DNA of 62,234 bases. Source: a virus. The notes beneath the pieces are model-generated. The model was not told the DNA's origin and searched no databases. It saw nothing but the letters and a program-made list of their open reading frames with translations. Positions within the stretch are counted from its first letter, which is position 1. Each line of letters starts with the position of its first letter. Made by a program: the position numbers and the translations under genes. This document shows positions 2,741 through 62,234 of this stretch, piece after piece. The stretch covers positions 1-62,234 of IMG/VR virus record IMGVR_UViG_3300017692_000001, one strand, 5' to 3'.

Positions 2741-3244
2741 TCAAATCCAGGCCGGCTGCACCGTTGCATCGGGTAACGATTGCAGGAACTGGATAACGTC
2801 TGCAGGCACGTCGCGCGACAGCCATGCGCTGCCGTATTTGTAGGGCTTGCCGTTGCGTAGATAGTCGGGATCAGGATTGAGACCGGCCGACTGAAGCGCA
2901 TGCGAAGCGCTGTCATAGTGCGATCCCGGATATTTCCATGTCACGGGGTTAGCTTTCAAAAATGCAGTCTGTGCGGGCGATCCTGCGGACATATCGTTTA
3001 GATGCCAGTCTTCCCAGATGGCAGCAAATTGCGCCAGTTTTTCGGCATTCCATCCGGGCGCGAAATCTTTGAAGGTGGGAACGGCAGTCATGAAAATCTG
3101 ACCAGACGATCCAGCCGCGTTACCGTTAGCTTTCGGACCTTCAACGCCAGTGATAGAAAGCCTGTTGTCGTTGAAAACGATTTTTGCAAAGGTGTTCCCG
3201 CAGGCAGTGCGGCCGATATGAACAATTTTGGTGAAGGTGGACAT
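2741..3244 (-). CDS. Hypothetical protein (167 aa)
   Basis: No family recognised. The ATG at 3244 (MSTFTKIVHIGRTACGNTFA) is preferred because CCTGGAGC precedes it; the longer reading frame would begin inside the promoter region. The protein is rich in aromatic residues in its second half (WEDWHLND, VTWKYPGSHYDSASH, KYGSAWLSRDVPADVIQFL). It is the first gene downstream of the leftward promoter with operator at 3282-3312, so probably one of the earliest leftward products. Confidence 0.7.
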   Translation of the reverse strand: MSTFTKIVHIGRTACGNTFAKIVFNDNRLSITGVEGPKANGNAAGSSGQIFMTAVPTFKDFAPGWNAEKLAQFAAIWEDWHLNDMSAGSPAQTAFLKANPVTWKYPGSHYDSASHALQSAGLNPDPDYLRNGKPYKYGSAWLSRDVPADVIQFLQSLPDATVQPAWI

Positions 3245-3281: not shown

Positions 3282-3312
3282 ATCATAACATGACAGCGCA
3301 ATGGACTGTCAA
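3282..3312 (-). promoter_or_regulatory. Leftward promoter with palindromic operator
   Basis: On the minus strand TTGACA (3312-3307) is followed after 19 bp by TATGAT (3287-3282). A perfect inverted repeat, TGACAG-N9-CTGTCA, occupies 3291-3311 and overlaps the -35 box. The same geometry occurs at 4135-4155, and a related one occurs at the rightward promoters at 4503 and 11521. It should drive the genes from 3244 down to 431. The bound regulator is unknown. Confidence 0.7.
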
Positions 3313-3815: not shown

Positions 3816-3842
3816 GTGGTGTTCTCCAGGTGAAGTGACGAA

Positions 3843-4094
3843 TCAGGAATTGATCGCTGCATTGATGCGGATGCGCATCGCGTCATCCATCGGACCGTAG
3901 ATCAGTTCTTGCAGTGCAGCGTCTGCGATGCGCTCCACCATACGCATGCAAACCAGCGCGACAGCCGCGCAAAACAGGCCGACGGCAAACAAGGCGCCAT
4001 CCATGAAGAACACACCCGCGCAGCACGCTGCATAGGTGGCGAGCACGAGGGCGATGCTTGTGAGGCTGAAGAAAGCAGAAGCAATGCGGCGCAT
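3843..4094 (-). CDS. Small membrane protein (83 aa)
   Basis: The ATG at 4094 (MRRIASAFFSLTSIALVLAT) follows CCTGGAATTCACC. Two hydrophobic helices are evident (about residues 5-27 and 30-52, the second ALFAVGLFCAAVALVCMRMV), then an acidic amphipathic tail that should face the cytoplasm. The longer upstream reading would run through the promoter and is rejected. First gene of the leftward transcript from 4126-4156; function not recognised. Confidence 0.65.
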   Translation of the reverse strand: MRRIASAFFSLTSIALVLATYAACCAGVFFMDGALFAVGLFCAAVALVCMRMVERIADAALQELIYGPMDDAMRIRINAAINS

Positions 4095-4125
4095 GGTGAA
4101 TTCCAGGTGATGTTGTCGGTGGTGG

Positions 4126-4156
4126 ATTGTAGCGTGACAGCCGGGTGCGCTGTCAA
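4126..4156 (-). promoter_or_regulatory. Leftward promoter with palindromic operator
   Basis: On the minus strand TTGACA (4156-4151), 19 bp, then TACAAT (4131-4126). The inverted repeat TGACAG-N9-CTGTCA spans 4135-4155 with the same arrangement as at 3291-3311, while the nine-base centre differs. It should serve the genes 4094 down to 3319. The 463-bp region 4095-4557 holds no gene I can support, only this promoter, a direct repeat and the rightward promoter. Confidence 0.7.
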
Positions 4157-4379
4157 ACGATTTGTGCGGTTCATCGCAAAAAGATTCGATAGCCCGCAAT
4201 CCGGCTGCATGCCATTCGATCGACAGCAATCCCGACGCACCCGATTAGCTTGCGTGCGATTCAATCGTGCCCGACACAATTCGTCCGACCCCGAGACGAT
4301 CACCGCATCCGGCCGTGGCCAACCCGAGCCACCGACCAACTGTCACACCTGGCCAGGACCACCGTCACACCAGCCGCCC

Positions 4380-4479
4380 GGCTTACTTGACAGGGTCAGC
4401 CAGTTTCAAATTTCTTGAAGTCTGACGATGACAAATTCCTGGCTTACTTGGCCATGCTGACCTGCTTCAAAATTTATGG
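4380..4479 (+). repeat. Imperfect 40-bp direct repeat upstream of the rightward early promoter
   Basis: GGCTTACTTG begins both units (4380 and 4441, 61 bp apart). Both continue with a GTCAG/CTGAC element and a TTCAAA-TTT block, so about 28 of 40 positions agree. The pair sits just upstream of the promoter at 4503-4531 and could be an activator or repressor binding region. Confidence 0.6.
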
Positions 4480-4502
4480 TGAGAAGTGATGACGATTTTT
4501 CC

Positions 4503-4531
4503 TTGACATTCCACTGCGCTGACAATACAGT
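4503..4531 (+). promoter_or_regulatory. Rightward early promoter
   Basis: TTGACA (4503-4508), 17 bp, TACAGT (4526-4531), then a GAGG ribosome site and the ATG at 4558. The half-site pattern TGACAT-N9-CTGACA (4504-4524) overlaps it. The promoter at 11521 shares the same pattern and also TTGACATTC and GCGCTGACAA, so a common regulator is likely. Confidence 0.75.
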
Positions 4532-4557
4532 CAACCGCACACCAACCGAGGAATGAC

Positions 4558-5196
4558 ATGACCGAAAGCAGCCTTCCCAAGCTCAAGCCTTTTCCCAACG
4601 AATCTGAAGCATTGGCAAACGAACGACGCGATAGCCGTTTGACCCGGCCAGGCATGCAGATCTTCACCGAACGCCAGGACATCGAGAACGACGAGACCAA
4701 GACCACCGAGACGATCGTGCTGATCACCTTCGCGACCGAGAACCAAAAGCCGAGGGGCGTGACGCTCAGCCCTCGCGAGTCGATCGATCTCGAACGACAA
4801 CTGCGCCGCATCAACCACGACCTGCAGCACGACGGTCGCCTGCTCAGCAGCAACCAGGTCAGCGTGCCGACGGTTCTCGATGCGAACTTCGCCCGCGACC
4901 TGATCGAACTCGGCAGCATGATGTTGGCCGACCAGGTGCAGCACGACGTGGGTGAACTGCAGATGACGACGTCGGCCGGCTACATGACCGTCAAGGGTGA
5001 AGTCGGAATGATGATCACCAAGCACAAGCGTGAGCACGTCAAGGCGGTGCAAGACGCAGTGATGCAGGCCGTGCCCGAGTTCAACCTGCTGCTGGAAGAA
5101 CTGTTCATCGCCAAGACCTTCGGCGTGTCGCTGCCGCCCGCCGTGCTGGCCGCGCTGTCGGCCTTCGATTTCGACGTCAAGACAGACGAGGCTTGA
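4558..5196 (+). CDS. Hypothetical early protein (212 aa)
   Basis: First gene of the rightward block, with GAGGAATGAC before its ATG. No family recognised. It is soluble, with a charged N-terminus. The middle segment (RESIDLERQLRRINHDLQHD) looks like a helix, and the C-terminal half is hydrophobic and helical (AVQDAVMQAVPEFNLLLEEL). Position directly behind the strongest-looking rightward promoter suggests an early, abundantly made product, possibly acting on the host; that is inference. Confidence 0.7.
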   Translation: MTESSLPKLKPFPNESEALANERRDSRLTRPGMQIFTERQDIENDETKTTETIVLITFATENQKPRGVTLSPRESIDLERQLRRINHDLQHDGRLLSSNQVSVPTVLDANFARDLIELGSMMLADQVQHDVGELQMTTSAGYMTVKGEVGMMITKHKREHVKAVQDAVMQAVPEFNLLLEELFIAKTFGVSLPPAVLAALSAFDFDVKTDEA

Positions 5197-5448: not shown

Positions 5449-5633
5449 CCAAGCTCACCAAGTCCGACACCCGTGCACTTTGGTACGCAGTCGACGCCTT
5501 GCACTGGCAAGTTCGCGCCATGCCCGACGTTGTTCCCGAGATCCCGAAGGAGACGATCGAGGCAGAACGCAAACTCTTGAGCGAGGCACGCGCCGCTCTT
5601 CGCAAAGTCAACGCCATCCGAAAGACCACATGA
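5445..5633 (+). CDS. Small hypothetical protein (62 aa)
   Basis: A helical, charged protein (MTKLTKSDTRALWYAVDALH then an acidic linker and EAERKLLSEARAALRKVNAI). It is translationally coupled at both ends: its ATG overlaps the upstream stop and its own stop overlaps the ATG at 5630. Function unknown. Confidence 0.6.
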   Translation: MTKLTKSDTRALWYAVDALHWQVRAMPDVVPEIPKETIEAERKLLSEARAALRKVNAIRKTT

Positions 5634-5968
5634 CCGCTCCCAAGAAACCCCTGCAAAAAGCCCTCAAGCAAAAGGACACCAACGTGCCACGCCCATCGCT
5701 GCGTGAGCCCGCCAGCCTGACCACCCTGCTGTCGAACCTGGCCGTCGGCGAGGTCTACGTGGTGTCGAGTCCTGCGGTGCACGGCAGCACCCTGGATGTC
5801 CACCAAAACTCACTCGCCGATGCCGGCGCGACGATCACCGACAAGGTCGTCCAACCGATCTCCCGAGCACAGGCCGACACCGGCTTCAAGTTCACCCGTG
5901 AACGCAACGTCTGTCTGACCGGTAGCGGCCGGACCTACGTGCAGATCATCATCACCCGCATCTCCTGA
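5630..5968 (+). CDS. Hypothetical protein (112 aa)
   Basis: The start at 5630 (MTAPKKPLQKALKQKDTNVP) is the coupled ATGA start; a lysine-rich N-terminal tail is followed by a compact beta-rich domain (VGEVYVVSSPAVHGSTLDV through GRTYVQIIITRIS). No family recognised. The frame extends further upstream, but that would overlap the previous gene by 150 bases. Confidence 0.6.
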   Translation: MTAPKKPLQKALKQKDTNVPRPSLREPASLTTLLSNLAVGEVYVVSSPAVHGSTLDVHQNSLADAGATITDKVVQPISRAQADTGFKFTRERNVCLTGSGRTYVQIIITRIS

Positions 5969-5978
5969 AAGGCACATC

Positions 5979-6407
5979 ATGAGCATCACACCCGACGACA
6001 TCTTTCGCATGAAGACCATCGAAGAAGAACTGCAGGACCTGAAGAGCCGCTACAACGAAGCGATCGACGTGTTCAGCAACGACTTGCGTCTGCACTTCCC
6101 ACTGTTGACGGTGAGCGATCCCATGCTCACGCTGCTGGTCGAAAAGGCCGAGATCATTCGTGAACTGCTCAAGCCGTTCGACGCTAGCGAGGGACAGCCG
6201 AGGATTGCACCCCGACGCACGACATATAACGGCACGGTGGCCATCCGTGAGATCGCAACTATTGCCAAGCTGATGGACCTGCCGCTAACGCCAGTGACGA
6301 TGACGAACAACGACTTGAGCATCGACCGCTACGACAACGAAGACGGCTGTGATGTCGTCTTGATCAGCGGCACGCTGCGCTGCCTGGTGAAGCGGGACGT
6401 TCGCTGA
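5979..6407 (+). CDS. Hypothetical protein (142 aa)
   Basis: GAAAGG precedes the ATG. The N-terminal 60 residues are helical (MKTIEEELQDLKSRYNEAID). The C-terminal part is beta-rich (TTYNGTVAIREIATIAKLMD, DVVLISGTLRCLVKR). No family recognised. The stop and next start form the junction TGATCATG seen repeatedly in this operon. Confidence 0.65.
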   Translation: MSITPDDIFRMKTIEEELQDLKSRYNEAIDVFSNDLRLHFPLLTVSDPMLTLLVEKAEIIRELLKPFDASEGQPRIAPRRTTYNGTVAIREIATIAKLMDLPLTPVTMTNNDLSIDRYDNEDGCDVVLISGTLRCLVKRDVR

Positions 6408-6409
6408 TC

Positions 6410-6922
6410 ATGGATACCACCGACAAACCCACTCGCCTGTTCATCGACGACAAGGTCGAACTGATGCGCAGCCTCACCGCCGAAGGAAAGAAGCAGATGA
6501 ACACGCTAATCGACGCATTCGATCGCATGGGCGTGGTTGTCGTCGGTGCGACGGCTGGCGTTGGCCAGGCCCTCGACAGTCTGCGTAAGGGCATGGAGCG
6601 TGTCGAGACCCTACCGACGATCGCTTTCCCACATAACGATCGAATCCTCGACCTGAAGGAGACGTTCAGACGGAAGAACAGCGAAGCGGTGCATCGTGAG
6701 ATCGAGCCGCAACTGCTCGAACGCATGTACGGCGTCACCGGTCGACCCGGCCCGCACTTCGCATACAGCACACCGTGGGCGTTCATGTCCCGCAAGGAGC
6801 GCAAGGCCAAGCGGCCGATCAAGCTGGCCGCGGAGGCGCTGGCCCGGGGTGAACATCGTTACTACAGCGGCGCCAAACTGGCACGCAAAGCGGCCAAGGG
6901 CCAGATCGGTGGTGTGAAGTGA
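6410..6922 (+). CDS. Hypothetical protein (170 aa)
   Basis: Not recognised. A glycine-rich hydrophobic stretch near residues 38-55 (FDRMGVVVVGATAGVGQALD) could be a membrane-inserting segment. The C-terminal 45 residues are strongly basic (SRKERKAKRPIKLAAEALAR, KLARKAAKGQIGG), suggesting nucleic acid or ribosome contact. The GTG start of the next gene overlaps its stop. Confidence 0.6.
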   Translation: MDTTDKPTRLFIDDKVELMRSLTAEGKKQMNTLIDAFDRMGVVVVGATAGVGQALDSLRKGMERVETLPTIAFPHNDRILDLKETFRRKNSEAVHREIEPQLLERMYGVTGRPGPHFAYSTPWAFMSRKERKAKRPIKLAAEALARGEHRYYSGAKLARKAAKGQIGGVK

Positions 6923-8040: not shown

Positions 8041-9455
8041 TCACGGATAACTTCAAAGGCGACGACGTTGCCCTCCTGTCGAGCATCGAATCGCTGCTCA
8101 ATCTCGACGCTGCCGGCGCGCTGGTGCCGCATGGCATCGGCGGCCATGCTCGCGATCTGTTATCGGCAGCACATTGCCGGCTGAAGGCGTCTGCAGAGAC
8201 CGACGTCCGCAAGATCATGCTGGATGTCGTGCCGGGCGACGGCATGGGCTACGAGGTCTACGCCAAGACCAATCAGGACGTGATCGATCGGTTGTCGAAG
8301 GTCGACGCCGAACTCGAAGACTGGCAACTCGGGATCAAGCGTCTGCCTCGAACAGCACGAGAGGTCTTCGATCTGCTGGTCGCCACGATGGAAGCGGACA
8401 ACGGGTCCAAGTACCGCACCACCAGCGAGCAGTTTGAGATGGCCGAGGTCCCGATATGCGAACTCCTGAACAAAGGGTATTTCAAGGACAGCCCCGAAGA
8501 CCTTGAGGGGTCCTTCTGGATGTGCATCGGAGGCGATCAAGAGGACGCCGAGAAGTTCTTCGAGCGGGCCGTCGAAGCCTACCGGCTGCTATACATCGTG
8601 ATGAGCCATGTCTTCAACGGACAGCCGCTCGACGCCGATGTCCCGGTCATCGAGATCAGCTACCTGCTGCGCGACGTGGTGAACCAGGAAGGCATGGTCA
8701 GTCCCACCATGCCGGACTACGCGGAGAAGGTGGCCATGTGGCTCGCGAACATCGACGACCAGGTCAAGCCGGCCGACGAGATAGCCTGCGGCACAAACAC
8801 CTGTCTACCGGAAGACAAGCACGTCGCAGGGTGCCATCTCGCCACCTCGGTCAAAGGCTGGTTGGCAGCATTGGCAGATGCGTATCACTGTCAGGCGTTA
8901 GACGCGCACACCCGTGGCAAGTTGAAAGAAGTGTTGACCCATCTCGCTGCCGCACCGTCCGCCGTCGTATCGGAGTACCTGGCCAAAACGGACAACGACC
9001 TGCTCACCAATGAAGAGGGTGGCGTGGAGGCCGACGGTTATGCAATCGAAGCGGCTTATCAGGCAGGCTTTCAGACCATCAACGACAACGCCGACGTGTT
9101 TTGCGCGAGTGCCCGGCAGATCGCAGCCCTGGTCCGCAGTTATCGGCAGCGTGCCGAATCGCTGTCCCATCTCGAAGTGCTGTCCAAAGCCCTCGAAGAG
9201 ATGATCGGCATGCTCGAAGAACGCGAGTGGGCCGAGCACGTCAGCACGATCCACAAGCACCCGCTGGCCGTCCGACTGGAAGCAGTCATCACGGACATGC
9301 ACAACGAAATCGGCAACAGCGAGGTCGGTCGCGCCCTGTTGGATGAAGTGAAGAAGTGCTTCACCCGCGATGACGATCTGCCGAACGACCTGCTGCCGCG
9401 GATCGATGCGTACCTGAAAGAAGGCAACGACGATGACGAAGCCACGCCCGCCTGA
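8037..9455 (+). CDS. Large hypothetical early protein (472 aa)
   Basis: The largest product of the rightward early block. Largely helical and acidic, with several cysteines (VPICELLNKGYF, FWMCIGGDQEDAEKF, EIACGTNTCLPEDKHVAGCH). No catalytic motif recognised. It ends in an acidic run (EGNDDDEATPA) resembling but not matching the DEI tail of other proteins here. The next gene starts 23 bases before its stop. Possible host-interaction factor; evidence is positional only. Confidence 0.65.
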   Translation: MITDNFKGDDVALLSSIESLLNLDAAGALVPHGIGGHARDLLSAAHCRLKASAETDVRKIMLDVVPGDGMGYEVYAKTNQDVIDRLSKVDAELEDWQLGIKRLPRTAREVFDLLVATMEADNGSKYRTTSEQFEMAEVPICELLNKGYFKDSPEDLEGSFWMCIGGDQEDAEKFFERAVEAYRLLYIVMSHVFNGQPLDADVPVIEISYLLRDVVNQEGMVSPTMPDYAEKVAMWLANIDDQVKPADEIACGTNTCLPEDKHVAGCHLATSVKGWLAALADAYHCQALDAHTRGKLKEVLTHLAAAPSAVVSEYLAKTDNDLLTNEEGGVEADGYAIEAAYQAGFQTINDNADVFCASARQIAALVRSYRQRAESLSHLEVLSKALEEMIGMLEEREWAEHVSTIHKHPLAVRLEAVITDMHNEIGNSEVGRALLDEVKKCFTRDDDLPNDLLPRIDAYLKEGNDDDEATPA

Positions 9456-9825
9456 AGAGGCCAGCAACACTCGTCGGGTGTTGTTCTGCCTGTCGCTCTA
9501 TGCACCGATGACCCGTGCCGAGATCGCGCAGACAACCGGCCTGACGAGCGACGAGGTCAAGGCAGCCATAGACATCCAGCGCCGCCGCTTTGGCACCGAT
9601 CAGATCTACATGATCGACTGGCGTGGCGAGGAAGCACTGTACGCCCTTGGCCCTGGTATTGACGCGCCGCGACCGTCCGACGTGCGCGCTGGCCGGGTCA
9701 AACGCAACTACCGTCAGCGCGCCGAGTCCGATGGCCAGCCCAAGGTGATCATCAAACCGTATCAAGGAATGGTCGGCGTGCCGGCGCATCCGTTCGACGG
9801 GCTACTGAAAGGAAAGCAATCATGA
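9433..9825 (+). CDS. Putative winged-helix DNA-binding protein (130 aa)
   Basis: Residues 15-55 look like a helix-turn-helix: RRVLFCLSLYAPMTRAEIAQ followed by TGLTSDEVKAAIDIQRRRFG, a pattern common in MarR/ArsR-like winged helices (three helices, then a wing-like strand pair around YMIDWRGEEALYAL). The C-terminus is basic. It could regulate the early operons, for example at the paired half-site promoters. Moderately confident in the fold, not in the target. Confidence 0.5.
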   Translation: MTKPRPPEEASNTRRVLFCLSLYAPMTRAEIAQTTGLTSDEVKAAIDIQRRRFGTDQIYMIDWRGEEALYALGPGIDAPRPSDVRAGRVKRNYRQRAESDGQPKVIIKPYQGMVGVPAHPFDGLLKGKQS

Positions 9826-11253: not shown

Positions 11254-11524
11254 ACGCAACCCGAGAACCTGGCACACCGGCCGGCCGCCACACGTCGGCT
11301 GGTGGCAGGCGTCCACTGGCCGCGACAAGAACGTCTGGCGCTGGTGGAATGGTCGACTGTGGTCGTCGAGCATGCGGTTCGACGCGCCGGCCCACCTGGC
11401 TGTCATCGCGGCATACCAGGCTGCACCCCACCTGATCAACCGGCTGGTCAAGTGGACCTACTACTGGCCCGCCAACGCGCGGGTGCCACGGATCAACCCC
11501 AAGAAGATCCGGCAAAACGCTTGA
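11240..11524 (+). CDS. Small tryptophan-rich basic protein (94 aa)
   Basis: Contains eight to nine tryptophans, including GWWQAS, WRWWNGRLW and WTYYW, and is strongly basic at both ends. Last gene of the first rightward transcript; its end overlaps the -35 box of the next promoter at 11521. Composition suggests binding of nucleic acid or membrane, but I recognise no family. Confidence 0.55.
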   Translation: MPARKRNPRTWHTGRPPHVGWWQASTGRDKNVWRWWNGRLWSSSMRFDAPAHLAVIAAYQAAPHLINRLVKWTYYWPANARVPRINPKKIRQNA

Positions 11525-11549
11525 CATTCTTACGCGCTGACAAGATACT
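11521..11549 (+). promoter_or_regulatory. Second rightward early promoter
   Basis: TTGACA (11521-11526), 17 bp, GATACT (11544-11549), with half-sites TGACAT-N9-CTGACA at 11522-11542, the same layout as at 4503. Start codon at 11579. It re-initiates transcription for the second rightward gene group. Confidence 0.75.
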
Positions 11550-11578: not shown

Positions 11579-12064
11579 ATGAGCATCGAACTCGCAGACG
11601 ATGGCAAGGGACAACCGTCGCTCGATGACCGGGTCCCCAAGGACAAACGCATTGCCATCGTGCAGCACGCAGTCGACGAGTTGATGTTGCTTGCCGCCAA
11701 ACTTGGCTGCGTGGTGCAGATCAAGACGCATGCCGTGGGCCTGTTCAAAGGTACTGCTCACGCGAGCGTACTGACGCGCGACGATGCTGTTGCGAAAGAG
11801 ACCGCGCGTCGCATGGCGTTGAACGTGGCGTTCGGGAAGATGGGTATGCGGCGCGACGGTTATTTCGGTGGCGTCGCGCAGTACGGCATGACGCCGTCCG
11901 AGATCAAGCCCGACACCAACCGTCCGAACGACCGCTATCTGAACGAGTGCCCTGCCAACGGCACGTCATGTTCGTTCAGCGCCAACGGTCCGGCTGGAGA
12001 AACGCAATGCGATCACTGCGGCCAAGTGCCCGAGTCCCACCCCGCGCGTTGGGGTAACTATTGA
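11579..12064 (+). CDS. Hypothetical protein with C-terminal zinc-ribbon-like motif (161 aa)
   Basis: First gene behind the 11521 promoter (CTGGAAACGAT before the ATG). The N-terminal 110 residues form an alpha/beta domain (RIAIVQHAVDELMLLAAKLG, TRRMALNVAFGKMGMRRDGY-like helix). The C-terminus carries cysteines as C-x6-C-x13-C-x2-C (ECPANGTSC to QCDHCG), likely one zinc site. Family not recognised. Confidence 0.6.
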   Translation: MSIELADDGKGQPSLDDRVPKDKRIAIVQHAVDELMLLAAKLGCVVQIKTHAVGLFKGTAHASVLTRDDAVAKETARRMALNVAFGKMGMRRDGYFGGVAQYGMTPSEIKPDTNRPNDRYLNECPANGTSCSFSANGPAGETQCDHCGQVPESHPARWGNY

Positions 12065-24050: not shown

Positions 24051-24593
24051 TCAGTTTGCGGGTTGTGCTGCTTCGACTGCAGCGCGGTCATTCAAGATGA
24101 TCCGGCGAAGGACCATCACTTCGGAATCTCGGCGTTCAAGATCTCGACGGAGCGCGTCGACCACCGGGACGCCGGCAGTAAGCTGTTGGTCGAGGGTGAT
24201 GGATCGATCTGCGAGAACTCGGCAGTCAGCGGGGCCAGCTTCAGCGAGGGCGCGATAACGGGTGGCACGGTCTTCGGCGCCGCGCTGCAGCCGGTCAGCA
24301 CGATCAGCATCGTCACGACGAGCAGCAGCAAGGCGGTCACGTTCTTGAGCGAATTCATTGAGGGCTTTCGTTTGTTCGACTTCATGGTTGCGCTGCACAG
24401 CAGCAAGTTGGCCGGCGTACCGGTTGGCGAGGTTGATCCGGGCATCGGTCTCAGCCTTGCGCTCGGCGATCTCGGTCTTCAGATCCAGCCGGGTGTCGAG
24501 CAGTTCGATGTGCTGGAAGACCAGGCGTCCGGCCGCACCGATCAGCAGCACGACGAGCGTGCCGATGACGAAGCGTTGCACGTTCGAGATCAT
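24051..24593 (-). CDS. Rz: Inner-membrane spanin, Rz-like (180 aa)
   Basis: An N-terminal membrane anchor (FVIGTLVVLLIGAAGRLVF) is followed by a long periplasmic coiled coil (ELLDTRLDLKTEIAERKAET to QERDRLAAARRDDADRADRL), the standard i-spanin plan. A separate lipoprotein frame is embedded inside it, and its ATG overlaps the endolysin stop (24590-24593). With the o-spanin it should fuse inner and outer membranes in the last step of lysis. Confidence 0.8.
   Translation of the reverse strand: MISNVQRFVIGTLVVLLIGAAGRLVFQHIELLDTRLDLKTEIAERKAETDARINLANRYAGQLAAVQRNHEVEQTKALNEFAQERDRLAAARRDDADRADRLQRGAEDRATRYRALAEAGPADCRVLADRSITLDQQLTAGVPVVDALRRDLERRDSEVMVLRRIILNDRAAVEAAQPAN
24116..24358 (-). CDS. 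Rz1: Outer-membrane spanin lipoprotein, Rz1-like, embedded in Rz (80 aa)
   Basis: A shifted frame wholly inside the Rz gene encodes MNSLKNVTALLLLVVTMLIV followed by LTGC, a strong lipobox (Cys24), and a short proline-containing periplasmic part (AAPKTVPPVIAPSLKLAPL). Size, lipobox and nesting are diagnostic of Rz1. An alternative ATG lies nine codons upstream (24385); neither has a strong ribosome site. Confidence 0.75.
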   Translation of the reverse strand: MNSLKNVTALLLLVVTMLIVLTGCSAAPKTVPPVIAPSLKLAPLTAEFSQIDPSPSTNSLLPASRWSTRSVEILNAEIPK

Positions 24594-51110: not shown

Positions 51111-52751
51111 TTAAACAAATTCTTCTTCAAGCTCTTCCTCTTCGTCGTCGATAACCAGCGGCTTGCCGGCTTTCAACAACGCGATGAAGCGCTTCAGGGT
51201 CTTGAACATATAGGTCTGTGCGCTCTGCTTACGCATCAGTGCCTCGAACACTGCTTCGTCGAGCGTACCAACTGCCGACAGGATGTGGACGACGACAGTC
51301 ATCAACTGACCTTGGCGCGCGAGGCGGCCGATGACCTGCTCGTAGTTTTCCAAGCTCCAAGGCAGGTCGAAGAAGATCATGTTGTGACCACCCTCCTGCA
51401 GATTCAAGCCGTGGCCGGCCGACTGCGGGTGCACCAGCAGCATCGGGATCTTGCCGCTGTTCCACTTCGGGATGCACTTGCCGTCCTTGTCCATCACGAC
51501 GGCCTTGGGGAACGCAGCCTTGATCCGGTGCAACGACGCCTGATGGTGATAGACCACGATCACAGGCTTGCCGTCGAGGTTGTCGACCAGTTCGGCCAGC
51601 GCGTCGAGTTTGAAGTTGTGGATCTTGTGGATCTTCTTGACCTTCTTCATATCGTCGGTTTCGAGATCCTTGTCCAAGTAGGTCTCGTAGAGCACGCCCG
51701 ACGCCAGTTGCAGCAGCTTTTGCGACAGCGCCGCGGCAGTCTCAGCCTCAACCTCAGTGCCATCTTCCAGCTTGACCATAAAGTCCTTCTGGAGTTCACG
51801 ATAGAGGGCCATCGACTTCTCGTCGAGTCGCACCGGCTGCTTGATGATCAGCGGCTCGGGCAGCTTCAGATAATCCTTGGCCTTCATGACCAGCGTCATA
51901 TGCGCAATCTTGGCCAGGATGTCCTTTTCGCCGTTGGGCCGCAGTTCCCACTTCTTGTTGTATTGGTTCTGCGAGAAGTAGGTCTTCCGGTAGGTGGTGA
52001 TGTTGTGGCCGAGCGCAGCGCCCTTATCCAATAAGAACATCTGCGGAAACAGATGCTCGTAGGTCTCAGCCGCAGGGCTGGCCGTCAGCAGATGCAGGCG
52101 CGTGATCAGGTTGCGAGTGCTGCACCGGATGTCCTTCATTGCACGGAAGCGACCCGACTTGTGGTCCTTGAAACTCGATGACTCGTCGATGATCACCGTG
52201 CGGTAAGGCCACTTCACGCCCCAATAGTCACAGAGCCATTCGAGCCAGTCACGCGAGATGATGTGTACGTCAGCACGCTTGTGGGCGGCGTCGATGCGAA
52301 TACGACCCTTCATCACGGTCTCGGCGTTACCTGCAGCACTGTTGATCGCCTTCTCGTCATGGCCAGCAAGCCGACCTTGCTTGCGACAGAATGCCGCGGC
52401 CTGGCGCACACGCGGATCGTCATCACGCGCATGGATGAGCGAATAGCTCATGCCTGCCGTGTGCAGCCAGTTGGCGATCTCCGCAGGCCAGGTCTCGCAG
52501 GCCACCCGGCGCGGCGCCACGATCAGGATCGGATCACCAGTGCAGAAGCCGTCTTCCAACAACAACTCGACGATCATCGTCAGCACGCACGACGTCTTGC
52601 CGAGACCCATGTCGATGAACAGCGCCGAGAACGGGTTGTCCTTCAGAAACTCGATGGCCTGGCGCTGGTAGACATGCAACTGCTGCGGCTTGAGCCGGAC
52701 ACGTCGGAAGAGCGCGCGAATCTGCTTGGCGATGGGGCTCAGTACAGCCAT
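51111..52751 (-). CDS. SNF2/SF2-type helicase (546 aa)
   Basis: Motif I: FIDMGLGKTSCVLTMIVELL (about residues 46-65). Motif II: VIIDESSSFK (DESS in place of DEAH). Motif III: HLLTASPAAETYEHLFPQMF. The helicase C part has KPVIVVYHHQASLHRIKAAF and QSAGHGLNLQEGGHNMIFFD, with motif VI in EQVIGRLARQGQLMTV. It should translocate on dsDNA and remodel replication or recombination intermediates. Its acidic C-terminus is EEEELEEEFV, similar in charge to the DEI tag but without it. Confidence 0.85.
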   Translation of the reverse strand: MAVLSPIAKQIRALFRRVRLKPQQLHVYQRQAIEFLKDNPFSALFIDMGLGKTSCVLTMIVELLLEDGFCTGDPILIVAPRRVACETWPAEIANWLHTAGMSYSLIHARDDDPRVRQAAAFCRKQGRLAGHDEKAINSAAGNAETVMKGRIRIDAAHKRADVHIISRDWLEWLCDYWGVKWPYRTVIIDESSSFKDHKSGRFRAMKDIRCSTRNLITRLHLLTASPAAETYEHLFPQMFLLDKGAALGHNITTYRKTYFSQNQYNKKWELRPNGEKDILAKIAHMTLVMKAKDYLKLPEPLIIKQPVRLDEKSMALYRELQKDFMVKLEDGTEVEAETAAALSQKLLQLASGVLYETYLDKDLETDDMKKVKKIHKIHNFKLDALAELVDNLDGKPVIVVYHHQASLHRIKAAFPKAVVMDKDGKCIPKWNSGKIPMLLVHPQSAGHGLNLQEGGHNMIFFDLPWSLENYEQVIGRLARQGQLMTVVVHILSAVGTLDEAVFEALMRKQSAQTYMFKTLKRFIALLKAGKPLVIDDEEEELEEEFV

Positions 52752-53023: not shown

Positions 53024-55104
53024 ACTTCAAGATCCCTGCACTTCTTGCAATGACGATGACCGTCCGGCACCGCATCGAATTCGACCCACTTGTCCCGGAT
53101 CGTCTCGCGCGTTGCCCCGCAGAGCGCAATGCCGCTCGGCAGTTCGACGGTGTGAATGGTTTTCTTCTCTTCCATGTGGGCCAGAACAGTGCCCGTGCGG
53201 CCGGCCAGCGCCGGATCGACACCCTTCATCCCGACGTCGTTCAGGATCGCGTTGGCCTCCCGGAGATACCACTGCATGTCGACGTTCTCGGGGAACTCGT
53301 CCGGCAGTTCCATGCATGGCCAGCAGGCGTCCGACTTCGGCACCTTGTTGCCGTTGTCACGCTTGAACATGGCCTCGCTGCTGTTGTTGCAGTGGTAGAA
53401 GCGGATGGTCTTGCCGACGTACTCGCCGTTGAACATCGCGCCGCCTTCACCGACCTTCGTCGACGTCAGGAATTTGCGGATGTCCTTGCACTCGTAGATC
53501 GTCCGCTCCAGGGGGATGTTCTTCTGCAGGTAGAGCACGACGGCGTCGTAGGCGATCTCGGCGTCGGGGTTCTTCTTCAGCCCATAGGCGCCCGGTATGC
53601 CACGCCCGTGGACCGCGGCCTTGCCCTTGCGCTTGATCTTCACCTTGCCGGTCTTCTCGTCTGGCACGGTGAACGCGATGTAGGTGTTGACGTCACGGGA
53701 GTGGACCGAACTGTATTCGGTGTACTCCATCTCAAGGCTCGTCTCGATCTCCCAATCCATGACCAGGCCGCGGTGCCACCACTTATGCTTGCGCGGCAGC
53801 TTGGTGACGACGCCGTCGGTGTTCGCGCTGATCACCTGGAAGCCGGCAAGGGTCATCTGCTCGATGAACATCAGCAACGATAGCTGACCCCCGAGTGTGG
53901 TCTGGATCATGATCTCGGGCGAGTAGACAACCGACCAGCGGCTGCTCGTCTTGCCGAAGAGACCGTTACACACAATCTTGCGCGACTCGGCAATCTCGAC
54001 CTGGCCCGCTCGCTTGGCGGCGGTTCGTTCGCTCACCTGGCGGCGGAACGCCGGCTGAAAGATCCCGCGCATGTTGTCCGGCTCCCGGCCGGTGGCGATC
54101 ATGTTGTTCGGGTAATAGCCGGTCACGTCGGTGTCGACGATGATCGTGTCTTCATCGGCGTAGTGGCTGATCGACGACTCCATCGAGTGCAGCCCACCGA
54201 TACCCATCATGTATCGGTTACCGCCAATCGTAACGATCCGACCTTCGAGTTCCTTCGGCGGGACGATGTAGCCGTCGCCACGAACGATGAACGACGCACG
54301 CATGACCTCATCGAACATCTGCTGCAGTTCTGGCGTCTGGAAGTTGATGTGCTTCGGTGGCACGAACTTGATCGCACCGGTCTTGACCTCATCGTTCGCA
54401 TACAGCTTGCGACCGGTCTCCTTCTCATAGACGCACTTCATCACCTGTTCGCCGACCTGCGCATCGCTCTTGCTGCGCATGTCGACACCGTATTCGTCGG
54501 ACATCTGCATGCGCAAGGTAATCTGCGGCTGCAACTCATCCCACAGGTCGCAGGTCAACTCCAGGTCGTTGTAGCAGTAGGCGGCCACCAGCGGGCGCAG
54601 ATCCTCGGTAACGAAGGTGTCATGGCCGACGGGCATGTCCTGGATCTTCTTCGACCCCATCATGGCGCCGTACATCTTCAGACTGGTGAACAGCGACTCC
54701 TTGCCACTGTCACGCGCGGCCGACGGTGCGACCTGGATCAAGTCGATGTGGTCGAGACCACGGGGCAGGTACAGCCCGTGGCGGTTCATGAACTCCCACG
54801 GCTTCAGGCCGACCAGTGGCTTCTTGACGATGATGGTGTCGTTCGCTGCCTTTAGTTCCTCGGTGCTGGCGCCGGTCAGGGCCAGGCAGATCATCGGGAT
54901 GTCGTAGTGGTTGCCGTTGAAGCTGACGATTCGATTGCGCGCAATGACCTTGCGGATGCCGTCAGTGTCGAGGGGATGGCCTTCGTATAGCTCGAACTTC
55001 ACACGGCGGCTGCGATCGGCCGTGGACATGAACGCGATCGACCAGTAGCCAGGCAGGCACTCGGTGTCGGTGGTGACGGTCGGTCGCTTGTCGATGTACT
55101 TCAT
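53020..55104 (-). CDS. DNA polymerase, family B with 3'-5' exonuclease (694 aa)
   Basis: Exonuclease: TDTE (Asp13, Glu15), SFNGNHYDIP (Asn63, Asp68) and YCYNDLELTCDL near residue 175. Polymerase motif A is IVDTDVTGYYPNNMIAT, motif B SRKIVCNGLFGKTSSRW and motif C VISANTDGVVTKLP; these fit family B (DxxSLYP, KxxxNxxYG, DTD) and not family A. Motif C is TDG where DTDS is usual. No separate terminal protein gene is evident, and the primase-helicase at 58990-61599 can supply primers. Size is compact for family B. Confidence 0.85.
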   Translation of the reverse strand: MKYIDKRPTVTTDTECLPGYWSIAFMSTADRSRRVKFELYEGHPLDTDGIRKVIARNRIVSFNGNHYDIPMICLALTGASTEELKAANDTIIVKKPLVGLKPWEFMNRHGLYLPRGLDHIDLIQVAPSAARDSGKESLFTSLKMYGAMMGSKKIQDMPVGHDTFVTEDLRPLVAAYCYNDLELTCDLWDELQPQITLRMQMSDEYGVDMRSKSDAQVGEQVMKCVYEKETGRKLYANDEVKTGAIKFVPPKHINFQTPELQQMFDEVMRASFIVRGDGYIVPPKELEGRIVTIGGNRYMMGIGGLHSMESSISHYADEDTIIVDTDVTGYYPNNMIATGREPDNMRGIFQPAFRRQVSERTAAKRAGQVEIAESRKIVCNGLFGKTSSRWSVVYSPEIMIQTTLGGQLSLLMFIEQMTLAGFQVISANTDGVVTKLPRKHKWWHRGLVMDWEIETSLEMEYTEYSSVHSRDVNTYIAFTVPDEKTGKVKIKRKGKAAVHGRGIPGAYGLKKNPDAEIAYDAVVLYLQKNIPLERTIYECKDIRKFLTSTKVGEGGAMFNGEYVGKTIRFYHCNNSSEAMFKRDNGNKVPKSDACWPCMELPDEFPENVDMQWYLREANAILNDVGMKGVDPALAGRTGTVLAHMEEKKTIHTVELPSGIALCGATRETIRDKWVEFDAVPDGHRHCKKCRDLEV

Positions 55105-58029: not shown

Positions 58030-58527
58030 TCAGTCGTTGCGGGGAACGAGGAACGGCGTCAGGTCGGCAGGCTTCCAGCCGGCCGGCTTCAGGATCTTAT
58101 TGGTGACGGGGTCGCGGTTGGCGATACCGTCCGGGAACTTCGCGTCGTTGGCGCCGAGCACCGCGTCGACGGCCAGACGGTAGTGCGGGGTCTGGTACTG
58201 CATGGAACCGGCCGTGACGACGGCGATGTCGATGTCAGCGTCGAGCAGGGCTTCGCGGTCTGCACGGAGAACAGCACCTTGGTAGTAACTGGCCTTGAAT
58301 TTTCGGCCCATCATGTCGAGTTCAGACGCGAACCTACGAAGGTATTCGCGTTCGTTCAAAGTCACAGCACCTTCGGCAACGACAGCAATCTTCTCGGCCA
58401 TCTCTTCCAACTGCATGCCGGTGTGGAAGCACACCCGATCTGCGTTGAAAGTCGGGCCGGGCGGGACGACCTGGCCGATCGCGTTGAAGTTGTGGACGGC
58501 CGAAAGCAGATCGCGGTTGGTTTCCAT
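58030..58527 (-). CDS. Phosphoribosyl-ATP/MazG-like pyrophosphohydrolase (165 aa)
   Basis: First gene of the long leftward transcript. The all-alpha pyrophosphatase core is visible: FHTGMQLEEMAEKI (E-x2-E-like), a central helix, DADIDIAVVTAGSMQYQTPH (D-x3-D), then YRLAVDAVLGANDAKFPDGI and the loop DPVTNKILKPAGWKPADLTP that is typical of phage MazG-like proteins. It hydrolyses nucleoside triphosphates, probably tuning dNTP pools during replication. Second such enzyme in the genome. Confidence 0.75.
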   Translation of the reverse strand: METNRDLLSAVHNFNAIGQVVPPGPTFNADRVCFHTGMQLEEMAEKIAVVAEGAVTLNEREYLRRFASELDMMGRKFKASYYQGAVLRADREALLDADIDIAVVTAGSMQYQTPHYRLAVDAVLGANDAKFPDGIANRDPVTNKILKPAGWKPADLTPFLVPRND

Positions 58528-58573
58528 GATGGTCCTATAAAACGGATGAGGGATGAACGGTTAAGAGACTGCA

Positions 58574-58601
58574 GTATTACCGCAGGTGGTGTACCTGTCA
58601 A
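58574..58601 (-). promoter_or_regulatory. Leftward promoter of the replication-structural block
   Basis: On the minus strand TTGACA (58601-58596), 16 bp, TAATAC (58579-58574). TGACAG-N9-CTG keeps the first half-site and the first three bases of the second. It precedes the ATG at 58527 and lies back to back with the HTH gene at 58652. Confidence 0.65.
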
Positions 58602-58651: not shown

Positions 58652-58933
58652 ATGCAATTTCCCGAGACCGTTGACGACCCGAGTCAACCTGATGAAGAAC
58701 GTGCTCGCCGTCGTTTGAAGTACCTGCTGGATCGGGCCAGCCTGCGCCTGACCGGGCGTGAGAGTGTACGCAGTCTGGCCAAGGCCCTGAACATGAACCA
58801 CTCGTCGGTCATATATGCACTGCGGCAAGGCAAGTGCGCCGCCCACATGGCCGTCACGATCGAAGAGATGTGCGGCCGGACACATACCCGCAACGAATGG
58901 CTGCGTCGCCCGCTCGACGTCCCGACGGAATGA
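58652..58933 (+). CDS. Helix-turn-helix regulator (93 aa)
   Basis: Residues 38-80 form a lambda-repressor-like HTH: ESVRSLAKALNMNHSSVIYA, LRQGKCAAHMAVTIEEMCG, with a closing TRNEWLRRPLD. This resembles small Cro/YdaS-type regulators. CCCGGAGCC precedes the ATG. It stands divergent from the major leftward promoter and upstream of the primase-helicase, the natural position for a regulator of that junction; the paired half-site operators are candidate targets. Confidence 0.7.
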   Translation: MQFPETVDDPSQPDEERARRRLKYLLDRASLRLTGRESVRSLAKALNMNHSSVIYALRQGKCAAHMAVTIEEMCGRTHTRNEWLRRPLDVPTE

Positions 58934-58989: not shown

Positions 58990-61599
58990 ATGAGTGGATA
59001 TTTTGAAGATCATGGGCTGACGCTGATAGCCAATGGCTACGGCATCGTCCCGATCCCCAAGGGCAGCAAGTCCCCGGGGTTGCGCATAGGTGAAGGTGAT
59101 GCGGCCAAGCCGTTCGCCTGGCAGTTGGACTACGCACGCACGCCCGAACAGTTCAAGGTCATGATCGACCGCGGATGGGGCAAGCACGGTGTCGGCATCG
59201 TGGCCAAGGACACGCCGGCAATCGACATCGACGTGCTCGACAAGGACATCGTCGAGAAGCTGGTGGATTGGGCCGAACACACGTTCGGCGTCACGTTCCC
59301 GCAGCGCGTAGGCAAGGCGCCGAAGACCCTGCTGATGTTCTCGACCGAGAAGCACTTCGGCAAGATCATGTCCGCGTCCTACTACAACGGAGATCATCCC
59401 GAGTGGACACCCGGCAGGCGGTACATGAAGGTCGAAGTGTTGGCTGACGGTCAGCAGTTCGTCGCCTATCACATGCACCCCGACACCGGCCGGCCCTACC
59501 AGTGGACCACCGACGACACACCGCTGAACACGCCAGTGATCGACCTGCCGCTGCTGACGGTCGACCAAGTGCAGGATGTCTGCCGCGAGTTCGAGCGACT
59601 GGCCGAAGAAGCCGGATGGGAGAAGAAGGCAGAGTCGTCATCCAGCACCACAGCCGGCGATGCAGACTACGACCCGCTGATGGAGATCCCGCCGCCGACC
59701 GAATCGACCTTCGAGGTTGACCGGGTCAAGTCGGCGCTGACGGCGATCAAGACGAAGATCAGCGAGTACAGCTACGAGCAGTGGCGAGATCTGATCTTCG
59801 CGCTGAAGTGGACCAAGTGGGACTGCGCATACGAGTTGGCCAAGGACGTCAGCGAAGCATCGGATCTCCACAACGAAAAGGAGTTCGAGAAGGTCTGGCG
59901 CGGCGCCGAGAAAAAGGAGGCTCGCGCCAACAAGGTCACGCTGGCCAGCCTCTACCAGCAGGCCAAAACCACGGCCGGATGGGATGCCACTCGCACGAAG
60001 ACCGAGGCAGAAGAACTCGAAGACTACGAGAAGATGGCCCGCATGTGCGCCAGGCTCGAAGGCATGGCCGAGGATGACAAATTCCGTCTGCTGCCGAAGA
60101 TCTTCCGCGAGATGGGCGATGCGAACCTGACGCCTGTAAACGAAGACCGCCTGTTGAAGCTGATCGGCAAGTTCACCGGGATCACCCTGCCAACACTGCG
60201 CACCGAACTGCGCAACGCGAAGAAGTCGGCCGAAGACGGTGGCGGCACACACGCTGCCTATGCCGCGGCGCTGATCCGCAATCTGAAGAAGGACAACGGT
60301 GTCGCCCCGATCGGCGTGGAGGGTCAGATCTTCTCCTTCGATACCGACGACCGAGTGTGGCGCGGCAAGATCACGGCCGACTTCGCGGTCGACGTGGCCG
60401 ACGAGTTCGATGGGCGCGAAAACTGCATCCGTCGCAACGACTACACCGCGATCGCAGCGCAAGCCTATGCCGCGGTCAGCCAGGGCAAAGCAGACTTCTT
60501 CAACAAGGCCCCGATCGGCCTGGCCTGCCGCGGCGTCTTCTACAAGGTCGACGATGAAGGCCAGGTCGTGAAGGAAGAACTGCGCGCCGAACACCGTCAG
60601 CGTGTGGCCTTCGACATCCGGCCGATCGTCGGCGACATGCCGATGTTCAACAAGCTGCTCGACGACGCATTCGGCGGCAACTACAAGGACGAGCAGGTAC
60701 AGCTTCTGCAGGAAGTCATCGGCGCCACCGTGCTCGGCATCATGGCCAACTACGAGAAGGTCGTGATGATGAAGGGGCCTGGTCGCGCAGGCAAAGGCAC
60801 GCTGCTGAAGATCATCGAATCGCTGATCCCGCCTGAAGCCCGGTCGGCCGTGTCGCCGTTCAAGTGGGACCGTGAATACTACCTCGCGGATCTCGCCGGC
60901 AAGCGGCTGAACGTGGTGGGCGAGATGCCGGACGACGAGGCTATTCCGTCGGCGCACTTCAAGTCGGTCACAGGCCGCGACACGCTGACCGGACGCCACC
61001 CTACCGGCCGACCCTTCAACTTCCGCAACCAGGCCGCGAACATCTTCAACGGCAACCACTTCATCTATACCAAGGACCACAGCCCTGCCTTCTACTCGCG
61101 GTGGCTGCTGATGTCGTTCAAGAACAGCCGCGTCGGCCGCGAGAACGAACAGCAGGTCGACCTTGCGCAGAAGATCATCGAACACGAGCGTCCGGCTATC
61201 TTGGCATGGGCGCTGCAGGGCGCCAAGGCATTGCAGAGCCGCGGACACTTCGTCGTCACGACCCCACAGCGGCTGATGATGCTGGAATGGCAGCGTCGCA
61301 CCAGCACCTTGCTGGAATTCATCCAGGACACCGACCACTGCGAGATGGGAAAGGGACCGAAATTCGTCACGGCCAGGTCTTTTTTCTACAGCGAATATGC
61401 GCAGTGGTGCAAGGACTCGAACCGCAAACCGATGGGAAAACAGAAACTTTTCGACGAATTGGAACAGGAGCAGACCAAACTTTTAGGCATTTCGACAGGT
61501 TTTATGCACGGCGGCGTCAACTGCGTTCGTGGCGTGCACATCAAACGGGGCGACGGGGGGATGTTCACGGATCTCGAAGACGACCCCGACGAAATCTGA
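58990..61599 (+). CDS. Primase-polymerase / SF3 helicase (869 aa)
   Basis: N-terminal AEP-type primase-polymerase domain (about residues 1-200): GYGIVPIPKGSKSPGLRI, the D-x-D of TPAIDIDVLD (Asp79, Asp81), then PQRVGKAPKTLLMF. A linker follows, then a D5-like region and SF3 helicase with Walker A GPGRAGKGTLLKI (about 597-609), Walker B RLNVVGEMPDDEA and motif C region FRNQAANIFNGNHFI. It should melt the origin, unwind DNA and make primers for the family B polymerase. Ends LEDDPDEI. Divergently transcribed from all other replication genes. Confidence 0.85.
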   Translation: MSGYFEDHGLTLIANGYGIVPIPKGSKSPGLRIGEGDAAKPFAWQLDYARTPEQFKVMIDRGWGKHGVGIVAKDTPAIDIDVLDKDIVEKLVDWAEHTFGVTFPQRVGKAPKTLLMFSTEKHFGKIMSASYYNGDHPEWTPGRRYMKVEVLADGQQFVAYHMHPDTGRPYQWTTDDTPLNTPVIDLPLLTVDQVQDVCREFERLAEEAGWEKKAESSSSTTAGDADYDPLMEIPPPTESTFEVDRVKSALTAIKTKISEYSYEQWRDLIFALKWTKWDCAYELAKDVSEASDLHNEKEFEKVWRGAEKKEARANKVTLASLYQQAKTTAGWDATRTKTEAEELEDYEKMARMCARLEGMAEDDKFRLLPKIFREMGDANLTPVNEDRLLKLIGKFTGITLPTLRTELRNAKKSAEDGGGTHAAYAAALIRNLKKDNGVAPIGVEGQIFSFDTDDRVWRGKITADFAVDVADEFDGRENCIRRNDYTAIAAQAYAAVSQGKADFFNKAPIGLACRGVFYKVDDEGQVVKEELRAEHRQRVAFDIRPIVGDMPMFNKLLDDAFGGNYKDEQVQLLQEVIGATVLGIMANYEKVVMMKGPGRAGKGTLLKIIESLIPPEARSAVSPFKWDREYYLADLAGKRLNVVGEMPDDEAIPSAHFKSVTGRDTLTGRHPTGRPFNFRNQAANIFNGNHFIYTKDHSPAFYSRWLLMSFKNSRVGRENEQQVDLAQKIIEHERPAILAWALQGAKALQSRGHFVVTTPQRLMMLEWQRRTSTLLEFIQDTDHCEMGKGPKFVTARSFFYSEYAQWCKDSNRKPMGKQKLFDELEQEQTKLLGISTGFMHGGVNCVRGVHIKRGDGGMFTDLEDDPDEI

Positions 61600-61991: not shown

Positions 61992-62015
61992 TGAAAATCC
62001 ACCAGGTCAAAACTT

Positions 62016-62185
62016 CAGCTTATGGGACAGAAATCAGCTTATGAGACAGGACGGTCAGCTTATGGATCAGAAACGGCCCCAACGTCAACCAACAGGCCAC
62101 CCCGACGTCAGCTTATGGGTTTAGACGGCTACGCCGACAGCCCGAACCTCCTGCTTATGGATCAGAAATTCAGCTTATGAGACTG
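62016..62185 (+). repeat. Six helically spaced CAGCTTATGRGACAG repeats
   Basis: Copies start at 62016, 62035, 62056, 62109, 62151 and 62171. Consensus CAGCTTATG then GGACAG, AGACAG or GATCAG. Distances are 19, 21, 53, 42 and 20, all near multiples of one helical turn, so bound proteins would sit on one face of the DNA. A reverse copy is at 61787-61800, and related words lie near the left end (184-310). Iterons of an origin or terminase-binding sites are the two obvious readings. Confidence 0.75.
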
Positions 62186-62222
62186 GTGTCATGATCACTT
62201 TCATAATTTTTCGTAAACCGGG

Positions 62223-62234
62223 GCTCTGCGGACC
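62223..62234. other. Right copy of 12-bp terminal repeat, probable cohesive end (cos)
   Basis: GCTCTGCGGACC, identical to bases 1-12. Joined once, the circle would read AAACCGGG-GCTCTGCGGACC-CGCCAGCCGG. See the left copy for reasoning. Confidence 0.6.

Follow-up and report, generated by a model that had tools for sequence, protein, structure and literature searches.

In phage lambda, Cro, encoded in the early operon, and its partner CI act at the palindromic operators of OR and OL, which lie over strong early promoters. The sites of P1 C1 and of mycobacteriophage L5 gp71, known as dispersed operators or stoperators, are asymmetric, and many of them lie outside promoters. MerR-type control is marked by a promoter spacer of 19-20 bp with the dyad centred in it. 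For Chi and its relatives, which are classical, therapy-relevant phages, the accessible parts of the open-access literature yielded no account of early-gene control or of an operator of the kind described here.

The window analysed is the whole of a 62,234-bp virus record, IMGVR_UViG_3300017692_000001, in which a dyad overlaps the -35 box of four predicted promoters. In this genome and its relatives we computed the sites, their promoter context, the fixed geometry of the dyad, its genome-specific arms and the near-universal occurrence of a Cro-like protein. The system resembles lambda OR/OL in its small HTH protein and in palindromic operators over the -35/-10 elements of strong sigma-70 promoters, a likeness from which early-gene turn-off would be expected. 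In contrast to lambda, however, single operators are spread over several promoters, each with a fixed axis and with one arm formed by the -35 box; no CI partner gene was recognised in this genome, and cro sits with the primase gene rather than in the early operon. With P1 C1 and L5 gp71 the system would share one regulator acting at many sites in the genome, the sequence of which varies between phage groups, whereas the sites here are dyads tied to the -35 box.

Four dyad promoters in a Chi-like phage

Positions 1-12 of the record are identical to positions 62223-62234 (GCTCTGCGGACC), which indicates a complete linear genome opened at a 12-nt cos. This cohesive-end feature of Casjensviridae is also annotated, again at 12 nt, in the record of BcepNazgul (Nazgul). 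From the sequences of its tape measure, DNA polymerase, helicase and primase, the genome is assigned to the Chi-like phages of the Casjensviridae, and its proteins are about 30-49% identical to those of Chi-like relatives. The gene set shared by the family (tape measure, DNA polymerase, helicase, exonuclease and primase plus cro, in one order) is present, and the helicase, VRR-NUC, SSB, Cas4-like exonuclease and primase each occur in 18/18 relatives. Gene order is that of AXY1, AH2 and Nazgul and is reversed in FoX4 and phiAxp-2; from left to right, a leftward early operon gives way to a rightward operon, then to structural and replication genes read leftward, and at the right end to rightward cro and primase. 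Neither a search of IMG/VR with the exact motif and four proteins nor a megablast search among phages returned a close relative. Because no sister phage was found, the exact operator letters could not be compared, and the geometry was compared in more distant relatives instead.

The four sites (Table 1) were found where the initial annotation had placed them and read as it described, and its spacer lengths for this genome, 19 bp leftward and 17 bp rightward, are likewise correct. The motif TTGACAN10CTGWCA occurs four times, against 0.015 expected under a first-order Markov model (maximum of one in 200 simulations), and TGACAN10CTGWCA gives six strand-matches against 0.04 expected from dinucleotide shuffles, 0/100 of which reached six; TTGACA overall is depleted in the genome (16 observed, 29 expected). 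All four sites lie just upstream of genes with a ribosome-binding site, with 26-37 nt between the -10 box and the start codon, and the -10 box of P(3291) also reads as an extended -10 (TGTTATGAT). Such overlap of an inverted repeat with promoter elements, recurring at several promoters within a genome, is the pattern of a Cro-type operator regulon. Two other readings of the letters were set aside: a second, overlapping promoter with CTGACA as its -35 box was rejected by eye for want of a -10 box at a fitting distance, and an RNA hairpin was rejected because the transcript is expected to begin downstream of the dyad.

All four sites contain an extended half, GCGCTGWCA; its five copies in the genome, against 3.2 expected, are informative only together with the partner half. 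At P(4135) the conserved half (GCGCTGTCA) is inverted with respect to the other three and lies over the -35 box rather than in the spacer. This orientation bears on the idea that a single ancestral promoter was copied to give all four, the second half-site being a mere passenger. Copying would account for the stretch TCCAYTGCGCTGWCA that P(3291) and P(4503) have in common; however, the inverted half at P(4135) argues against simple promoter duplication, and the compensated arms found across genera (below) would need selection on symmetry, which makes such an origin hardly credible. As side observations, the small leftward genes have closely similar leaders before the start codon, at 3817-3836 and 4094-4113 (80% over 20 nt), and a half-operator-like TTGACAGGGTCAGCCAGTTTCA between the divergent promoters may be due to chance.

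Table 1. Positions of predicted promoters, operators, genes and repeat clusters in the window and, in the last four rows, of repeat clusters in other genomes
Feature	Position	Strand	Description
Gene under predicted P(3291)	2741..3244	-	167 aa, no family
P(3291)	3282..3312	-	-35 TTGACA 3312-3307; 19-bp spacer to -10 TATGAT
P(3291) operator	3291-3311	-	Palindrome TGACAG-N9-CTGTCA; TGACAGTCCATTGCGCTGTCA
First gene of leftward operon from 4094, under predicted P(4135)	3843..4094	-	83 aa
P(4135)	4126..4156	-	-35 TTGACA 4156-4151; 19-bp spacer; -10 TACAAT
P(4135) operator	4135-4155	-	Palindrome; TGACAGCGCACCCGGCTGTCA
GCTTACTT cluster, this genome	4381-4450		
Candidate extra half-operator	4387..4409	+	TTGACAGGGTCAGCCAGTTTCA; one mismatch to motif on minus strand; no -10 box
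P(4503)	4503..4531	+	-35 TTGACA; 17-bp spacer; -10 TACAGT
P(4503) operator	4504-4524	+	TGACAT-N9-CTGACA; TGACATTCCACTGCGCTGACA
First gene of rightward operon from 4558, under predicted P(4503)	4558..5196	+	212 aa, no family
P(11521)	11521..11549	+	-35 TTGACA; 17-bp spacer; -10 GATACT
P(11521) operator	11522-11542	+	TGACAT-N9-CTGACA; TGACATTCTTACGCGCTGACA
Gene under predicted P(11521)	11579..12064	+	161 aa, no confident family
Gene under predicted fifth promoter	58030..58527	-	Nucleotide pyrophosphohydrolase-like; divergent from cro
Fifth promoter	58573..58601	-	-35 TTGACA 58601-58596; 17-bp spacer; -10 AATACT; reads TTGACAGGTACACCACCTGCGGT-AATACT
Cro-like HTH protein, candidate regulator	58652..58933	+	93 aa, phrog_7401
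Primase-polymerase gene	58990..61599	+	Follows cro directly; conserved in every relative
GCTTACTT cluster, FoX4	54556-54644		
GCTTACTT cluster, YSD1	53024-53189		
GCTTACTT cluster, FSL SP-088	5484-5649		
GCTTACTT cluster, UF_RH7	51150-51427		

Dyad geometry across the Casjensviridae

In a first comparison, of promoter-like sites in five relatives, the letters differed and the geometry was kept. The arms are TGACAC-N9-GTGTCA in AH2, TGACAA-N9-TTGTCA in Nazgul and TGACTT-N9-AAGTCA in AXY1 and phiAxp-2; in a 21-bp frame with its axis at base 11, the -35 box supplies TGAC as the left arm and the spacer holds the right arm. The refutation named in the initial annotation, absence of the pattern upstream of orthologous operons, was answered in two ways, with the letters absent from the relatives and the geometry present.

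A promoter set was assembled from 18 genomes by listing all TTGAC occurrences that have a -10 box 16-19 bp away, a requirement that misses weaker -35 boxes; only sites followed by a ribosome-binding site and an open frame were kept, and near-duplicate genomes were removed, which left 81 sites. Symmetry was assessed by holding TGAC fixed, shuffling the rest of each site and scoring all axes. At axis 11, 329/648 pairs (0.51) are complementary in these 81 predicted promoters, against 165 expected (0.25), giving z = 14.6, a value that is partly after the fact in that the axis was first noticed and then quantified in the same genomes; the shuffles over all axes and the genomes added later serve as guards. 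The next best axis reaches z = 2.8, so that every axis other than 11 stays below z = 3. TTGAC sites in coding DNA are paired at 0.27 at axis 11, with no peak, and phages outside the family, which have only the helicase family in common with it, have no axis-11 symmetry (z = -1.5, 48 sites). The IMG/VR genomes added later gave z = 5.9. This set is small, its 20 sites coming almost wholly from two of the five records, and looks partly close to YSD1 and Q29; it therefore serves as a check and not as independent proof.

In Chi-type sites the paired bases lie further inward, so a strict TTGAC-N13-GTCA pattern misses part of the family. FoX4 promoters have another common spacer element and at most a weak dyad. 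The Aeromonas phage 13AC503A has the dyad (TGACAGGC..GCTGTCC); beside its dyad promoters, three others, at 24544, 26574 and 29599, carry a TTGACAGTCNCC..CACC-type spacer with no clear dyad, perhaps reflecting two regulatory classes within one phage.

The arms differ by genus, with TGACAG/CTGTCA here and TGACAC, TGACAA, TGACTT, TGACCT or ACAC elsewhere, and pairing is kept while the letters change: positions 6/16 are occupied by C-G, G-C, T-A or A-T, and positions 7/15 by A-T, G-C or C-G. Within genomes the arms are more alike (0.47) than between genomes (0.32), a likeness that 0/1000 label permutations equalled. One protein that could read such sites is a regulator of the host, and host factors such as CtrA are reported to regulate some phages (accessible part of PMC9437464). 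However, AH2 and Nazgul, both Burkholderia phages, have different arms, and phages of Salmonella, Klebsiella, Cronobacter, Providencia and Pseudomonas have ACAC/GTGT-like arms in common; different arms on one host group and like arms across five host genera argue against a host protein, which we consider a very improbable binder. The geometry together with the genome-specific arms fits a phage-encoded dimeric regulator.

The initial annotation had read the sites as a regulon with two classes under one regulator. The single regulator is upheld by the common geometry across the family and by the likeness of arms inside a genome; the division into two classes is not. Dyad promoters of the relatives almost all have 16-18 bp spacers in both directions, 19 bp being confined to two promoters here, and each supposed class has only two sites in this genome. 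Nor is the imperfect second half specific to rightward promoters, as had been suggested, for AH2 has an imperfect right arm, ..GTGACA, on a leftward one.

A Cro-like candidate regulator

The Cro-like family is represented by one copy in 17/18 relatives, and its gene adjoins that of the primase in every relative in which the annotation there was inspected. A profile built from 12 of the proteins matches a solved Cro, that of a Xylella fastidiosa prophage (Xfaso 1, PDB 3bd1), with an E value of 6e-7, which supports a relation to Cro and makes 3bd1 the best solved relative of the family profile; at 86-99 aa, the Casjensviridae proteins exceed it in length and carry additional N-terminal sequence ahead of the part that matches. 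This match is in line with an earlier comparison of AH2 gp77 with a Xylella Cro, given in the accessible part of PMC3483164. Used as a single query, the protein of this genome reaches only phrog_7401; its structure model from the single sequence was poor (pLDDT 55.5), and Foldseek with that model returned no match with E below 0.001.

No HTH candidate other than the Cro-like protein was found to be conserved across the family, and the product of 58652-58933 is the best candidate for the regulator. Operator distance is correlated with Cro distance (Mantel r 0.37, p 0.015; 12 genomes with noisy arms), also when primase distance is allowed for (partial Mantel r 0.30, p 0.035), a weak correlation that is suggestive only. 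No clear operator copy was seen at the cro promoter itself in most relatives. The initial annotation had named two possible regulators. The first, this Cro-like protein, is retained; the second, the product of 9433-9825, is judged unlikely, for its only match, to a winged helix, falls below threshold and at 1e-3 none of the 18 genomes contains a relative.

Another phage regulator, such as a fast-evolving early protein with no recognisable domain, could nevertheless bind the dyad. In 13AC503A the dyad is retained although another HTH protein occupies the cro position, and the early proteins are mostly unclassified. Yet a Pfam scan of 40 early proteins of this genome gave a weak HTH-like match only in 9433-9825, which stands alone among the genomes compared, whereas the Cro-like protein is present throughout nearly all of them; we therefore consider such a regulator unlikely.

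The reading we favour, and hold to be probable, is that the -35-box dyad is the operator of a phage dimeric regulator, most likely the Cro-like protein, that competes with RNA polymerase. Strong host-type promoters would fire on infection. Since the -35 box (TGACnn) doubles as the left arm and the spacer contains the right one, and the operator axis sits about 25 bp before the point at which transcription is expected to start, binding of the regulator would compete with -35 recognition by host sigma-70 polymerase. Once the regulator, most likely the HTH protein encoded just upstream of primase, had been made, steric exclusion would shut the promoters down. From these observations we infer protein binding, the Cro-like identity of the binder and repression rather than activation. 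One phage switch protein probably controls early genes family-wide and turns them off.

Activation has to be weighed at this point. In a MerR-type scheme the dyad would be an activator site within an over-long spacer, the -35 and -10 boxes being realigned on activation, and the 19-bp leftward spacers would be its point. The dyad does overlap the spacer, and P(3291) and P(4135) combine 19-bp spacers with good hexamers. Timing in phage JS26 is also relevant: in the accessible part of an RNA-seq report (PMC8754663), the left-end genes gp01-gp13 are early, and gp15-gp45 and gp77-gp84, including cro (gp83) and primase, are expressed in mid-infection. As far as that part of the report defines the blocks, the predicted JS26 dyad promoters at 8878, 12636, 16713 and 20828 lie in the rightward, mid-infection block; the term 'early' is therefore safe only for the left-end operon, and this timing would also fit an activator. 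The axis, however, falls at spacer base 6 rather than mid-spacer, with the -35 box as left arm, relatives have dyad promoters with shorter spacers, and no MerR-like protein was found among the early proteins of this genome. A spacer of MerR length is thus limited to two promoters, without a centred dyad, and activation of this type appears distinctly improbable. Separately, the left-end early promoter regions of JS26 (2972-3090 and 6314-6480) have TTTGCATCCGNCNCATATTCGG and a similar CCCTTCGGGG leader, and are of a type different from the dyad promoters of the same phage.

Extended to the family, repression by the Cro-like protein suggests an old lytic regulon in the Casjensviridae, in which it would silence all early promoters through genus-specific, co-evolved arm codes and with no CI. 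We put this forward tentatively, as a possibility somewhat short of an even chance; if true, mostly virulent phages would form groups of differing repressor specificity and would cross-regulate when they co-infect a host. With the geometry fixed and the letters changing, the operator, the promoters and a candidate regulator can be predicted for each genome, and the family provides a natural series in which to study the co-evolution of a small HTH protein with a site of which part is pinned by the -35 box.

The fifth promoter and other repeats

The initial annotation had added a fifth promoter to the set. The promoter is present (Table 1) and keeps TGACAG and CTG of the four-site motif, and its best palindrome, CAGGT-N5-ACCTG, has the same axis, with five contiguous pairs and CAG..CTG in common with the four. 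Full membership was not sustained, as its counterparts in Nazgul, KPN U2874, YSD1, FSL SP-088 and Redjac have 0-2/8 pairs. We regard this promoter of the divergent cro/replication control region as no more than a weak or diverged member of the set; it may serve autoregulation of the cro region.

Another repeat, GCTTACTT, occurs 2-6 times within about 30-280 bp on one strand in 11/19 genomes, this one included. It lies in the divergent early control region wherever the annotation was checked (this genome, FoX4 and FSL SP-088), and clusters are also found in Nazgul, SS2019XI, Redjac, 13AC503A, UF_RH7, YSD1, JC01 and Q29; at the same place AXY1 has CGTACTTTGG-like and AH2 GTGCCCTTC repeats. This is perhaps a second conserved cis element, consisting of origin iterons or of sites for another regulator. 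Finally, five TCAGCTTATGGGACAG-like repeats lie at 62015-62190, near the right cos end of the window, and CTATCCCAT repeats lie at 184-308, near the left cos end; TTATGGGACA is found in addition four times in Erwinia phage pEp_SNUABM_08, near the record end and upstream of cro. These are possible terminase or initiator sites.
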